The position numbers and the translations under genes are program-made. Under the pieces are notes generated by a model, which searched no databases, was not told the DNA's origin, and worked only from the letters and a program-made list of their open reading frames with translations. From Lysobacter sp. BMK333-48F3 (lineage in GTDB: Bacteria; Pseudomonadota; Gammaproteobacteria; Xanthomonadales; Xanthomonadaceae), in the NCBI RefSeq assembly GCF_019733395.1, contig NZ_JAIHOO010000001.1, positions 3,038,501 to 3,102,500 of the forward strand: 64,000 bases of DNA, written 5' to 3'. This document shows, piece after piece, positions 39,548 through 43,757 of the stretch. Position 1 is the first letter of the stretch. Each line of letters starts with the position of its first letter.

Positions 39548-39743
39548 GGGATTGGGGATTTGGGATTCGGGATTCGTTAGAGCCGAAGCCAAAGCCAAAG
39601 CGTTGAAGCAGACGGCGCCCGGGGAACCGGGCGCCGTTTGTTTTTTCTGGCTGGGATTGGGGGTTTGGGATTCGTTAGGGCACAAGCCAAAGCGCTGAAG
39701 CAGGCGGTGTCCGGGGGAGCCGGGTGCCGTTTGTTTTTTGGGC
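39548..39743 (+). repeat. About 100-bp direct duplication with G-runs and terminator
   Basis: The segment after ftsH occurs twice. Copy 1 (39548-39650) and copy 2 (39653-39743) each contain a G-run tract with GGGATTGGGG, then AAGCCAAAGCG(T/C)TGAAGCAG, then a hairpin of GGCGCCCGG/CCGGGCGCC type ending in GTTTGTTTTTT. The first hairpin is perfect; the second has decayed. Confidence 0.85.
39613..39646 (+). terminator. Terminator of ftsH
   Basis: The arms CGGCGCCCGG and CCGGGCGCCG enclose GGAA, and TTTGTTTTTT follows. A degenerate second copy lies about 100 bases downstream (ending near 39739). Confidence 0.9.
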
Positions 39744-39908
39744 TGGAATTGGGGACTGGTCGGAGTCTGGGCTCCGGGATGGACCGGGCAGGTGTCGGAC
39801 CGGTTCTGGCTTGCGTTGCCTAAAAAGGAGCGTGGGAGGGGGCGCTTTGCCAGGTCGAGGGTGAAAGCCGCAGGACGCTTGCGTAAGCTCGACGGGGACG
39901 AACACTCG

Positions 39909-39932
39909 CCCAATCCCCAATCCCCAATCCCC
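39909..39932 (+). repeat. C-run tract in the folP leader
   Basis: Four C-runs separated by AAT (CCCAATCCCCAATCCCC...) end 6 bases before the folP ATG. They are complementary to the G-run tract after ftsH at 39548-39571. The minus strand fits a G-quadruplex pattern with 3-base loops. No SD sequence is visible for folP, because the leader is pyrimidine-only here. Confidence 0.75.
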
Positions 39933-39938
39933 AATTCC

Positions 39939-40841
39939 ATGTTCGACCTCTCCCCGATCCTCGACTGCAACGGCCGCCCGCTCAAGCTCGATCGCCCGCG
40001 GGTGATGGGCATCGTCAACGTCACCCCGGACTCGTTCTCCGACGGCGGGGCGCACGATGGCGTCGAGGCGGCGGTGGCGCATGCGCTGCGGCTGGCCGCG
40101 GAGGGCGCGGACGTGCTCGATATCGGCGGCGAGTCGACCCGGCCCGGGGCCGATGAGGTGCCGGTCGAGGAGGAACTGCGGCGCACGATTCCGGTGATCG
40201 AGCGCTTGGCGCGCGAAACCGGCCTGCCGATCAGCATCGACACCTCCAAGCCCGAGGTCATGCAGGCTGCGGTCGCGGCCGGCGCGGGGATGATCAACGA
40301 CGTCTACGCCCTGCGCCGCGACGGCGCGCTCGAAGCGGCGGCCGGGCTCGGCGTGCCGGTGGTGCTGATGCACATGCAGGGCGAGCCGCGCTCGATGCAG
40401 CACGAGCCGGTCTACGACGACGTGGTCGCGCAAGTGCACCGCTTCCTCGCCGAGCGCATCTTCGCCGCCGAGATGGCCGGCATCGCCAAGAAACGGATCG
40501 TGGTCGATCCGGGCTTCGGCTTCGGCAAGACCCTGGACCACAACCTGAGCCTGCTGGCCCAACTCGAGCGCTTCGCCGAACTCGGCGTGCCGCTGCTGGC
40601 CGGTCTGTCGCGCAAGCGCAGCATCGGCGAGCTGACCGGCCGCGAGGACGCGCGCGAGCGCGTGCACGGCTCGGTCGCCGCGCATCTGATCGCGGCCCAG
40701 CGCGGCGCGACGCTGCTGCGCGTGCACGACGTCGCCGCGACGGTGGACGCGCTGAAGGTCTGGCACGCGGTCGCGGCGCAAGCGATGCCGCGGCGTACGA
40801 CGGCGTCGGCGCCGTCGCTGAAGTGGCCCGACGACGAGTAA
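39939..40841 (+). CDS. folP: Dihydropteroate synthase
   Basis: A 300-residue TIM-barrel enzyme of folate synthesis and the sulfonamide target. Signatures are RVMGIVNVTPDSFSDGG, VLDIGGESTRPGADEVP, GAGMINDVYALRRD, VVLMHMQGEPRSMQ, DPGFGFGKTLDHN and GLSRKRSIGELTG. The ATG at 39939 is the family start; the upstream leader is repeat sequence. In E. coli glmM follows folP; here a 1.9 kb non-coding array and miaA follow. Confidence 0.97.
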   Translation: MFDLSPILDCNGRPLKLDRPRVMGIVNVTPDSFSDGGAHDGVEAAVAHALRLAAEGADVLDIGGESTRPGADEVPVEEELRRTIPVIERLARETGLPISIDTSKPEVMQAAVAAGAGMINDVYALRRDGALEAAAGLGVPVVLMHMQGEPRSMQHEPVYDDVVAQVHRFLAERIFAAEMAGIAKKRIVVDPGFGFGKTLDHNLSLLAQLERFAELGVPLLAGLSRKRSIGELTGREDARERVHGSVAAHLIAAQRGATLLRVHDVAATVDALKVWHAVAAQAMPRRTTASAPSLKWPDDE

Positions 40842-41165: not shown

Positions 41166-42680
41166 CTGGCGATAATTTCGCCACAATCCTGCAAGCCTTG
41201 CGGCGCAAGGCGTGAAACCCGATTCGCGGGCGACTGTCCGCAGCCTTGTCCACAGCGCATGTGGACAAGGCGCGGCCGGGATTGCGCGTGCGGCGCCCGC
41301 TCGGCATCGGGCTCGGGACCGCGACGGACAGTCCGCGTCGCGCCGGTACAGGGCCGCCGGCGGAACGTGCCCGCTTCGTGGACAAAAAATAGCCAAACTC
41401 CTGCGAGGCTTGCTGCGCAAGGCGTGAAACCGCCTTCGCCGATGTGTGTCCGCAGCTTTGTCCACAGCGTTTGTGGACAGCGCACGCGTCGTATCGCGGC
41501 AACGCACAGCGGCGCCGGATTTGTCAACGCGGACCGCTGCGTCCAGGCGCGGACCCGACGCCTCTCGTATCGCCGTCGAGGACGGCCGATGTCCATCGCC
41601 TCCAGCGCTGGCGAAGATTTGTCCAAAATCCCCGAAGCCTTGCCCCGCAAGGCGTGAAACCCGAATCCCCGGCGAGTGTCCGCAGCCTTGTCCACAGCCG
41701 ATGTGGACAAGCGCACGAGGCGAAGCCGGCGCCTGCGCCGACGGCAGCCCTCCGGTCGGTACCGCTCCGCGACGGGGGCAGGGCTCGCTGCGAATCGCCG
41801 TCGGATCCGGATCTCGACGTCCTGGACAAAAAATCGCCAAAACTCCGCAGGCCTTGATGCACAAGGCGTGAAACACGCCTCCCGGCCGTGTGTCCGCAGG
41901 TTTGTCCACAGCGTTTGTGGACAGCGTACGCAAGCTCTCGCGGCCATCGCACCGCACTGCCGCTGCGCGAGCGTAGCGGCGTCGCCATCGCGACCGGCCC
42001 GAAATCGGGCGCGGAACGGCCCGCGCGCGCCTGGCGATATTTTGTCCAGAATCCTGCAGGCCTTGTCCCGCAAGGCGTGAAACCCGATTCCACGACAGCT
42101 GTCCGCAAGCTTGTCCACAAGCGATGTGGACAACGGCGCCGCGGCGAAACCGCAGCGCAGGCCAAGGCGGGAGCGTCGCGGCGCCAGGGCAGGGCATCGC
42201 AGCGATCGCTGCCGGCGACGCGATGCCGGTAGCCGCATGGCGCGCGTCATGCCCGCGCGAGCGTGTGTTCCCAGACATCGCGGCGGCCTGGTGATTTTTT
42301 CGCCAATCTTTGCCAGGGCTTGCGACGCATAGCGTGAAACCCGATTCGCGGATCGCTGTCCGCAGGCTTGTCCACAGCGAATGTGGACAGCCGGCGCGCG
42401 CGCCGCGGACCGGCGCCGATCGCGCGGATGCGCGCAAAGCCTTGGAAGTCAAGCGAAAATCGCTGGTCAAATTATCGCCAACCCTCTTGCAATCGTTGTG
42501 TGGCAACGGATTGCGGGCGCGTTCCGGAAACTGTCCGCAGGCTTGTCCACAGGCTGTGTGGACAACCGCAGGCGGGTGGCGATGTTTTCGCCAAAATCCC
42601 GCCAAGCCTTGCCGTGCCTGGGCTGCGCCGGCTTATCAACAGGCTTGCCCCAGTGCTTCTCCACAGCGGATGTGGAAAGC
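41166..42680. repeat. Eight-unit array of inverted DnaA-box-like sites
   Basis: Inverted nonamer pairs TTGTCCACA-N5-TGTGGACA(A/G) lie at 41246-41268, 41458-41480, 41688-41710, 41902-41924, 42111-42133, 42368-42390 and 42543-42565, with a degenerate pair at 42657-42679. In the first seven, TGTCCGCA starts exactly 11 bp before the first nonamer. In units 1-6 that box starts exactly 24 bp after the end of a 17-base element (GCCTTGC-N3-GCAAGGC in units 1 and 3, related in 2, 4 and 5, weak in 6) followed by GTGAAAC. An AT-rich block (GATAATTT, GACAAAAAAT, GATATTTT, GATTTTTT) precedes each unit. The 70-150 bases between units are not conserved. TTGTCCACA matches the DnaA box form of high-G+C bacteria. 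No gene is present. Confidence 0.9.
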
Positions 42681-42767: not shown

Positions 42768-43757
42768 ATGCCCCGTTCCGCCGACCCGCGCCCGCTCGCG
42801 ATCGCCCTGATGGGGCCGACCGCGTCGGGCAAGACCGCCCTGGCCCTGGACTGGGCGCAGCGCCTGGACGGCGAGATCGTCAGCGTCGACTCGGCCCTGG
42901 TCTACCGCGGCCTCGACATCGGCGCGGCCAAGCCCAGCGCGGCCGAGCAGGCGCTGGTGCCGCACCACCTGATCGACGTGCGCGACCCCTGGCAGCCGTA
43001 CTCGGCCGCCGACTTCGCCCAGGACGCGCGCCGCGCCCTGGACGGCATCGTCGCCCGCGGCCGCCTGCCGATCCTGGCCGGCGGCACCGGCCTGTACTTC
43101 CACGCCCTGCTGCGCGGTCTGGCGCCGATGCCCGAGGCCGACGCCGCGGTCCGCGCCCAGCTGGCCGCCGAGGCGGGGCGGCGCGGCTGGGCCGCCCTGC
43201 ACGCCGAGCTGGTCCAGGTCGATCCGGAGGCGGCGGCGCGCATCCACGCCACCGACGCCCAACGCATCCAGCGCGCCCTGGAAGTGTTCCGCCTGTCCGG
43301 CAAGCCGATCAGCCGCTGGCGTCGCGAGGCCCTGCACGCGCCGCGGCTGCCGTATCGGGTGCTCAGGCTGGCGCTGGCGCCGGCCGAACGCGCGACCCTG
43401 CATGCCCGGATCGAGCGCCGCTTCGACCAGATGCTGGCCGACGGCTTTCTCGATGAAGTCCGCCGTCTGCGCGCGCTGCCGCCGCTGGGCGCGCATCCCG
43501 CCCCGCTGGATCTGCCGGCGATCCGCGCGGTCGGCTACCGCCAGGCCTGGGAGTACCTGGACGGGGCCGGCAGCGAGGACCAGTTCCGTGCGCGCGGCAT
43601 TTACGCGACCCGGCAGTTGGCCAAGCGCCAGTTGACCTGGTTGCGCGGCGAGCTTGACCTGCGTTGGTTCGACCCTTTGCGTGATGCGGTCGAGTTGGAG
43701 CGCACATTGACCCAGTTCGCGGGCGTTCGGCTCGTAGGACGGGCCCCGGCGGCTTAG
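42768..43757 (+). CDS. miaA: tRNA dimethylallyltransferase
   Basis: A 329-residue enzyme that adds the isopentenyl group to A37 of UNN-decoding tRNAs. The P-loop is [20 protein letters not shown]. Other signatures are [68 protein letters not shown] and [14 protein letters not shown]. The start [13 protein letters not shown] is the first ATG before the P-loop. Upstream open frame belongs to the non-coding array. The order miaA-hfq-hflX-hflK-hflC is conserved. Confidence 0.96.

Follow-up and report, generated by a model that had tools for sequence, protein, structure and literature searches.

A tandem array of putative DARS-type DnaA-binding cores between folP and miaA in Lysobacter

Introduction

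Two single DARS sites, DARS1 and DARS2, are known in Escherichia coli, and in Bacillus subtilis clusters of DnaA boxes act as DnaA sinks. The box spacing of DARS1 and DARS2 is identical, with box I opposite to boxes II and III (PMC5742627), and the head-to-head boxes I and II are described as characteristic of DARS and essential, box III being stimulatory (PMC10380432). Double DnaA boxes 2-3 bp apart are reported to be preferred by DnaA in vivo (PMC11317965). DARS have been described for E. coli and close species; the latter share with it the DARS2 core together with the accompanying IHF and Fis sites (PMC4245941, PMC5742627).

Here we describe a set of DnaA-box units between folP and miaA in Lysobacter sp. 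BMK333-48F3, together with related single elements. Because E. coli has two single sites of this kind, a tandem DARS-type set was unexpected. Titles and abstract openings, in which subscription journals were thinly covered, yielded no published description of such an array or of the priA-linked element reported below, and the novelty of both is not proven.

Results

The window is a stretch of 64,000 nucleotides. Its folP ORF (dihydropteroate synthase, 39738..40841, plus strand) matched Pfam Pterin_bind at 2.4e-84 over residues 90-330, and the true start of folP probably lies downstream of the ORF start; miaA (42768..43757, plus strand) matched Pfam IPPT at 1.5e-87. A first-pass annotation had proposed eight related units between these genes, and our pattern scan of the window bore this out, revealing seven intact units and a worn eighth one (41168..42679, plus strand). 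Units 1-7 matched NTGTCCRCA-N3-TTRTCCACA-N5-TGTGGAYAN with 0/25 mismatches, and the weak box claimed to lie 11 bp upstream of the first nonamer was exactly placed in all seven. When up to 6 mismatches were allowed, the sole extra match in the window was worn unit 8, which has 6 mismatches, reads TTCTCCACA-N5-TGTGGAAAG and has lost box III. All units run in the direction common to folP and miaA. The box III starts of units 1-8 are 41234, 41446, 41676, 41890, 42099, 42356, 42531 and 42645, giving start-to-start spacings of 212, 230, 214, 209, 257, 175 and 114 bp.

An intact unit consists of a Fis-like AT block about 66 bp before box III, a small palindrome with GTGAAAC (units 1-6), and a 35 bp three-box core. 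In unit 1, the Fis-like block (41168..41182) has 2 mismatches to the Fis consensus GNNYANNNNNTRNNC, GTGAAAC lies at 41212..41218, and the DARS-type core (41234..41268) reads box III CTGTCCGCA-N3-box II TTGTCCACA-N5-box I TGTGGACAA. The other Fis-like blocks and cores, located by consensus and pattern scans and, like those of unit 1, on the plus strand, are at 41380..41394 (0 mismatches) and 41446..41480 in unit 2, 41610..41624 (1 mismatch) and 41676..41710 in unit 3, 41824..41838 (1 mismatch) and 41890..41924 in unit 4, 42033..42047 (1 mismatch) and 42099..42133 in unit 5, 42290..42304 (2 mismatches) and 42356..42390 in unit 6, and 42465..42479 (1 mismatch) and 42531..42565 in unit 7. In unit 8 the block (42578..42592) has 2 mismatches, and the worn core (42645..42679) follows unit 7 by 114 bp. 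The AT-rich block said to open each unit was thus present in 8/8 window units, with 0-2 mismatches to the Fis consensus. GTGAAAC begins 22 bp before the 9-mer of box III in units 1-6; the fixed offset proposed earlier held in these six units, and its value, given then as 24 bp, depends on the counting point. GTGAAAC and the palindrome are missing from unit 7 and from a unit beside a response-regulator gene elsewhere in the genome, and GTGAAAC also occurs in many units of other Lysobacter.

None of the 6 ORFs tested in the gap had a Pfam match, and coding content was rejected on this ground; the long antisense ORFs are, in our judgement, an effect of high G+C. A non-coding RNA was also rejected, as Rfam gave one sub-threshold match, which lies inside folP.

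The three boxes of units 1-7 had a mean pairwise identity of 0.94-1.00. The value fell to 0.65 for the AT block, 0.58 for the stretch between this block and box III, 0.37 over the first 26 bp beyond the core and 0.29-0.30 at greater distance. Because identity is only 0.29-0.30 well outside the units, the DNA between them is not conserved, in agreement with the first-pass annotation. The label "phased" given to the array applies inside the unit and fails between units: the spacings are not multiples of a common helical repeat of 10.5, and helical phasing between units was rejected.

The nonamer TTGTCCACA occurs 14 times in the 5.2 Mb genome, 11 times in the array, twice in one single unit at C1:4474335 and once elsewhere. 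Read backwards as a control, it occurs 10 times, indicating that the nonamer is little enriched genome-wide but concentrated in the array. Pairs of the form TTGTCCACA-N5-TGTGGACA with at most 3 mismatches were found at 11 places in this genome, of which 8 are the array. With 8/11 pairs and 11/14 TTGTCCACA boxes falling in the array, chance and a dispersed repeat, the outcome held in advance to tell against the array, were both rejected. The nonamer TTATCCACA occurs 7 times (2 upstream of priA, 2 in the dnaA-dnaN gap, 3 elsewhere), which brings the perfect TTRTCCACA boxes in the genome to 21 (14 + 7). By location, 15 of these 21 therefore lie in elements of one architecture.

The array is a non-coding site away from oriC, 1.46 Mb (28.0% of the contig) from dnaA. 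It had also been proposed as an auxiliary unwinding site, and each unit does have both an AT block and DnaA boxes, as an auxiliary or cryptic replication origin with an unwinding element would. The block is, however, only 55% A+T over 22 bp and scores as Fis-like, single elements next to other genes have it too, and boxes I and II stand head-to-head, not in head-to-tail runs. The oriC candidate, in the dnaA-dnaN gap 1.46 Mb from the array, has a different layout, with DnaA boxes and an AT-rich stretch of its own, and head-to-tail boxes beside an unwinding element near dnaA were not found in the array. We therefore consider an origin extremely improbable. Units as oriC copies were rejected as well, since the dnaA-dnaN gap has two TTATCCACA boxes and no unit.

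The genome has two further single units, one adjoining priA and one between response regulator and histidine kinase genes. The latter (C1:4474335-4474357; L036 3336-3358) is an array-type unit on the minus strand, with genes for a LuxR-type response regulator and a hybrid histidine kinase on either side; pairs with the same neighbours were observed in L074-L077, L080, L086, L090-L092 and L095. The former (C1:1189938-1189960; L037 3939-3961) is a DARS2-like element upstream of priA with TTATCCACA boxes and with an IHF-like site (at -99) and a Fis-like one, each with 1 mismatch.

For comparison, the sequences of DARS1 and DARS2 were taken from E. coli MG1655. DARS1 reads TTATCCACT-N5-TGTGGATAA-N3-TGTGTATTA, and DARS2 reads TTATTCACC-N5-rcCTATCCACA-N3-rcTTCTTCACA. 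On the strand starting with box III, both consist of box III, 3 bp, box II, 5 bp and inverted box I, and their III-3-II halves agree with the table of PMC11317965. Units 1-7 and the priA element are identical to both E. coli cores in order, orientation and 3/5 bp spacing: three boxes are present, and box I is opposite to boxes II and III. Judged by this geometry, the units are very probably DnaA-binding DARS-type cores. Observations that count against a DARS reading include the box sequences, since boxes II and I are of the TTGTCCACA type and box III is CTGTCCGCA, away from TTATCCACA, and the modest score of 7.4 that even DARS1 reaches on the full flank profile described below.

Near-perfect palindromes in some units would suit a different dimeric DNA-binding protein recognising TTGTCCACA-N5-TGTGGACAA, as the first-pass annotation had allowed. 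Each core, however, has a third box at 3 bp, present on a single side as in the double DnaA box already described (PMC11317965); this argues against such a protein, as do the TTATCCACA boxes in related elements and the exact DARS1/2 geometry, and we hold this alternative to be very improbable.

The earlier suggestion of a datA/DARS-like control of DnaA was strongly supported in its DARS half, by the exact core geometry, and unsupported in its datA half. E. coli datA resembles the array as a DnaA-box cluster outside oriC and near miaA, but it has no III-3-II-5-I core, and no inverted 5 bp pair with fewer than 5 mismatches was found in its region. The datA reading was rejected on this geometry; the units, compared with E. 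coli datA and its one IHF site, also gave no match to the IHF consensus at the slot examined. The proximity of datA and miaA in E. coli, to which the first-pass annotation had pointed, proved real (datA boxes at L099 1178-1427 and miaA from L099 7753, about 6.4 kb apart). It looks coincidental, because queG, nnr, tsaE, amiB and mutL, which lie between them, are absent from the folP-miaA gap. Six DnaA-box clusters outside oriC provide a further likeness in B. subtilis, which differs in being described as having no Hda, IHF, datA, DARS1 or DARS2 (PMC13220808).

DARS1, in the bioD-uvrB gap, shares with the array units three DnaA boxes in equal order, orientation and 5/3 bp spacing. It needs no trans-acting activators in vitro, unlike DARS2 (PMC4245941), and the array units likewise have no IHF site. 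It differs in being present as one copy in E. coli, against 7 + 1 in the array, and in its boxes, those of the array being TTGTCCACA/CTGTCCGCA. The Fis-like block is well kept in the array, whereas none of the best three Fis matches of DARS1 is near -66. DARS2, in the rppH-mutH gap, shares the core geometry, but the array units lack an IHF site, their Fis-like block is positioned differently from the DARS2 Fis site, and DARS2 has further DnaA boxes IV-VI in E. coli (PMC4245941).

Related pairs are widespread. The TTRTCCACA-N5-TGTGGAYA pair was found in 54/60 genomes (own and relatives), including 20/20 of the genus; the 40 genomes outside the genus had one pair in 29, more in 5 and none in 6. 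A PriA match adjoined the pair in 16/26 fetched loci outside the genus (family and order), and in L061 and L062 the pair lies behind the 3' end of priA. A class scan of 229 genomes with spacers of 0-24 bp gave matches in 105 genomes, and its reversed-pattern control gave matches in 2/229. Among the matches listed, 71 of 75 plus-strand rows, counted by eye, had a 5 bp spacer, two had 17 bp, one 22 bp and one 24 bp; 17 bp is the distance from box III to box I in the same core. A phylum scan of 249 genomes drawn differently gave matches in 52 genomes, and among those listed, again counted by eye, 32 of 72 plus-strand rows had 5 bp, 10 had 17 bp and 30 had others (17, 1 and 13 in the 31 listed rows from the same class). 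Spacers of 5 bp are less prominent in the phylum scan than in the class scan; the other phylum spacers were 0, 3, 4, 6, 9, 10, 13-15, 17, 19-22 and 24 bp.

Inverted TTATCCACA pairs with spacers of 9-10 or 19-24 bp were observed in other class members (L170-L173, L175-L177, L179 and L180), with no DnaA or PriA match within 1.5 kb. The proposal that non-5-bp pairs mark oriC was unsupported, 15 fetched loci having no DnaA or PriA match within their flanks. Outside the class, perfect TTATCCACA-N3-TTATCCACA-N5-TGTGGATAA cores were seen, for example, in G399, G498, G411, G514 and G448; the single locus read among these, L190 (G448), had no IHF or Fis match in the slots. The core may be older than the class.

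Of 30 fetched class-scan loci, 28 had the 5 bp pair, and PriA was adjacent in 11/30 (10/28 for the 5 bp pair). One long neighbouring ORF was tested at each of 20 non-PriA loci, and the Pfam families matched by 12 of these ORFs were diverse (exonuclease I-type, ProS-type, Lon-type, HemN-type and others), indicating that the DARS-type element is not tied to one gene. E. coli UvrB, BioD, BioC, MutH and YgdQ had no match in the ORFs of 49 loci.

The flanks of these elements hold fixed slots for IHF and Fis consensus sequences. The IHF consensus TAANNNNTTGATW and the Fis consensus were taken from PMC8682772 and are independent of these data. The analysis covered 52 elements with full flanks (25 order and 27 class) and omitted L049, in which the last base differs, L104 and L105, which have spacers other than 5 bp, and L116, which is at a contig end. 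Orientation was set by the better box III, so that the two sides are not independent. Box III on that side matched TTATCCACA at at least 7/9 positions in 38/52 elements and at least 6/9 in 49/52, and on the opposite side never at more than 4/9. On the box III side, the IHF consensus (at most 1 mismatch) was found at -96..-101 in 23/52 elements and at -86..-89 in 6/52, and the exact Fis consensus at -64..-68 in 17/52 and at -54..-56 in 9/52. On the box I side there were 0 IHF or Fis matches at the slot positions, and shuffles averaged 0.07-0.16. Where both slots are present, they tend to shift jointly, by roughly a helical turn. In DARS2 an IHF-like site with 1 mismatch lies at -87, the register of part of the class-wide elements; the order of DARS2 in E. 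coli is core-IHF-Fis, against core-Fis-IHF in the class-wide elements.

Twelve later elements were obtained from the 15 N5 loci of the phylum scan, minus L184 and L185 (the same as L054 and L055) and L186 (own genome). Box III matched at at least 6/9 in 10 and at least 7/9 in 5; within the slots, IHF was found within 1 mismatch in 6/12 and Fis within 1 mismatch in 8/12 (exact in 1/12). L167, L168 and L174 are poor fits, as they lack an IHF match and their box III matches badly. The IHF/Fis slots hold in new data, but not for every 5 bp pair.

For the array-type units, 16/17 folP-miaA sources supplied a set of 60 that had complete flanks and no more than 2 mismatches in the core; a unit of L083 was left out as too close to the sequence end. 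The Fis consensus was found within 1 mismatch at -65..-67 in 47/60 (shuffle mean 2.65) and in 5/8 window units, units 1, 6 and 8 having 2 mismatches. The motif GGNNAWWWWWTNNCC is present in 59/60, but it was written after the units had been viewed, and the 47/60 for the Fis consensus is the fairer figure. The IHF consensus within 2 mismatches at -97..-101 was found in 0/60, so that a DARS2-type IHF site at fixed distance is absent from the array units and present in the priA element. The species in all these sets are related, and the counts are not independent events.

Against a flank profile built from 44 elements, the DARS1 flank peaked at register 0, the register common to the class-wide elements, with a score of 7.4 that 2/2000 shuffles reached. 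The DARS2 flank was highest at +12, the -87/-55 register, with a score of 12.0; its shuffle test covered registers -1..+1 only and gave 13/2000. All these shuffles kept single-base composition only. Of the 30 profile-member scores printed, 28 lie between 10 and 41, and array units 1-7 scored low on the full profile (-20.5 to 4.6, shifts -2..+2 only). The comparison suggests, without proving, that the E. coli DARS sites belong to the family of class-wide elements. In the upstream flank of DARS1 (L098), we also observed the inverted repeat GCAAGC/GCTTGC and, after it, CTCGTG; both stand between Fis slot and box III, at about the place of the palindrome and CGTGAAAC in array units.

Units in the folP-miaA gap were found in 17 sources, 16 of which gave the 60 units above. 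The exact unit pattern was found in 19 named stretches, 17 of them Lysobacter and the others Vulcaniibacterium and Paraburkholderia; in the latter (L093), it occurs once, and no Fis consensus with up to 1 mismatch accompanies it. When worn units are counted too, the smallest arrays have 2 units, in Vulcaniibacterium (L083), Lysobacter chinensis (L084) and L. maris (L088), and the largest, in L. antibioticus HS124, has 11. A distance of 114 bp separates the last intact unit from the worn unit next to miaA in the window, L079, L082, L083, L084 and L088, and no worn unit above threshold was found at this place in L078, L081, L085, L087, L094 and L096. This last pair may be ancestral, with the remaining units added. 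In Lysobacter sp. yr284, four units have an exact 206 bp period and are probably a recent duplication. A second array of four units was observed in the same strain (L089 140-752), about 58 kb from the folP-miaA array and near an ORF that resembles alkaline phosphatase by reading of its translation. Two groups of pairs 57-59 kb apart in opposite orientation were seen in G014 and G002.

Among 30 miaA loci of the family, searched 1.5 kb upstream and leaving out 48 further miaA matches, units were found in 7 (own and 6 others) and in none of the other 23, indicating that the array is not generally needed. Its distance from oriC was 28.0% of the genome in our strain (G000), 33.8% in G001, 33.3% in G016, 10.0% in G005 and about 28% in G014 (calculated by hand from a rounded genome size). 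A conserved array-oriC distance was rejected as evidence, given 10.0% in G005 versus 28.0-33.8% in G000, G001 and G016.

A regulatory region under DnaA/Fis control, serving miaA-hfq-hflX or folP read-through, would fit the position of unit 7 and the worn unit beside the miaA start, their constant 114 bp spacing in several species, and the regulation of promoters by DnaA in E. coli (PMC11317965). We nevertheless judge this improbable: like elements adjoin priA, exonuclease I-type, ProS-type and Lon-type genes and others, yr284 has its second array 58 kb away, and seven to ten units seem, in our judgement, far beyond the needs of a promoter.

The genome encodes a DnaA of 448 aa that is 55% identical to E. 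coli DnaA, Hda and IhfA, both above cut-off (a curated one for Hda), and a Fis homologue with 50% identity over 74 residues. Aligned to the E. coli protein, Lysobacter DnaA keeps F46, K178, K243, R245, R285, L290, R334, R399 and D433-T436; at the positions of E21, V211 and R227 it has D, M and Q. We take R334, R399 and D433-T436 to be key residues, with the roles usually assigned to them. For AID-1 R227, importance for DARS2 has been reported (PMC4245941).

Discussion

The best reading of these data is that a widespread DARS-type element with a core, a Fis site and an IHF site appears to have been multiplied without its IHF site in Lysobacter and neighbouring genera. We think it rather likely that the main job of the array, as tandem DARS-type cores, is the reactivation of ADP-DnaA, a function that we infer from the architecture. 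In each unit, boxes II and III would serve DnaA as a double box, with a second DnaA placed head-to-head on the inverted box I at a distance of 5 bp. By analogy with DARS1 and DARS2, this face-to-face pair would loosen ADP from ADP-DnaA, and apo-DnaA would leave and take up ATP. Bound to the AT block at 66 bp, a Fis dimer would adjust the reaction to growth, and IHF would not be used by the array units, unlike in the priA-linked element. About seven copies would raise the reactivating capacity and hold many DnaA molecules. Several results count against this reading: the missing IHF sites, the 2-mismatch Fis-like blocks of units 1, 6 and 8, the low profile scores of the array units, the order of Fis and IHF sites in the class-wide elements, which differs from DARS2, Q at the place of R227, the 23 miaA loci with no units, the phylum spacers and the misfits among the later elements. 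The last two left our estimate as it was, because the argument for the array rests on core geometry.

The array could instead be a DnaA sponge that only titrates DnaA, as proposed for datA, and so delays or buffers initiation with no nucleotide exchange. With 11 of the genome's 21 perfect TTRTCCACA boxes, it far exceeds any other cluster of them, its unit number varies between species as in a dose device, and its units have no IHF site. Titration, however, needs no fixed 5 bp head-to-head pair, no box at 3 bp and no fixed Fis-like block; the conservation of the boxes and of both spacings exceeds what it would require, and single-copy relatives of equal geometry can titrate little. Pure titration thus seems unlikely to us, though it deserves to be taken seriously. 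Reactivation and titration can hold at once, because 7 units offer 21 boxes.

For the origin of the array, we tentatively propose a joint reading, which is possible without being our firm expectation: DARS would be ancient and class-wide, with E. coli DARS1 and DARS2 as descendants and an IHF-less Lysobacter copy amplified into a tunable array. The original DARS would have had the order core-Fis(-66)-IHF(-99), often next to priA, and DARS1 and DARS2 would descend from it in two helical registers, -99/-66 and -87/-55. One copy would have lost its IHF site and been amplified between folP and miaA to 2-11 units, with a second array arising in some species.

A far more widespread element with a DARS core and fixed IHF/Fis slots would offer a comparative handle on ADP-DnaA recharging. 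The roles of reactivation and titration in initiation timing are still debated (PMC12371093), and the natural tandem array, with 2 to 11 units between species, would provide a dose series for weighing one against the other. If the joint reading is true, DnaA reactivation in these bacteria would be a copy-number-tunable, IHF-independent and Fis-responsive dial for replication initiation.
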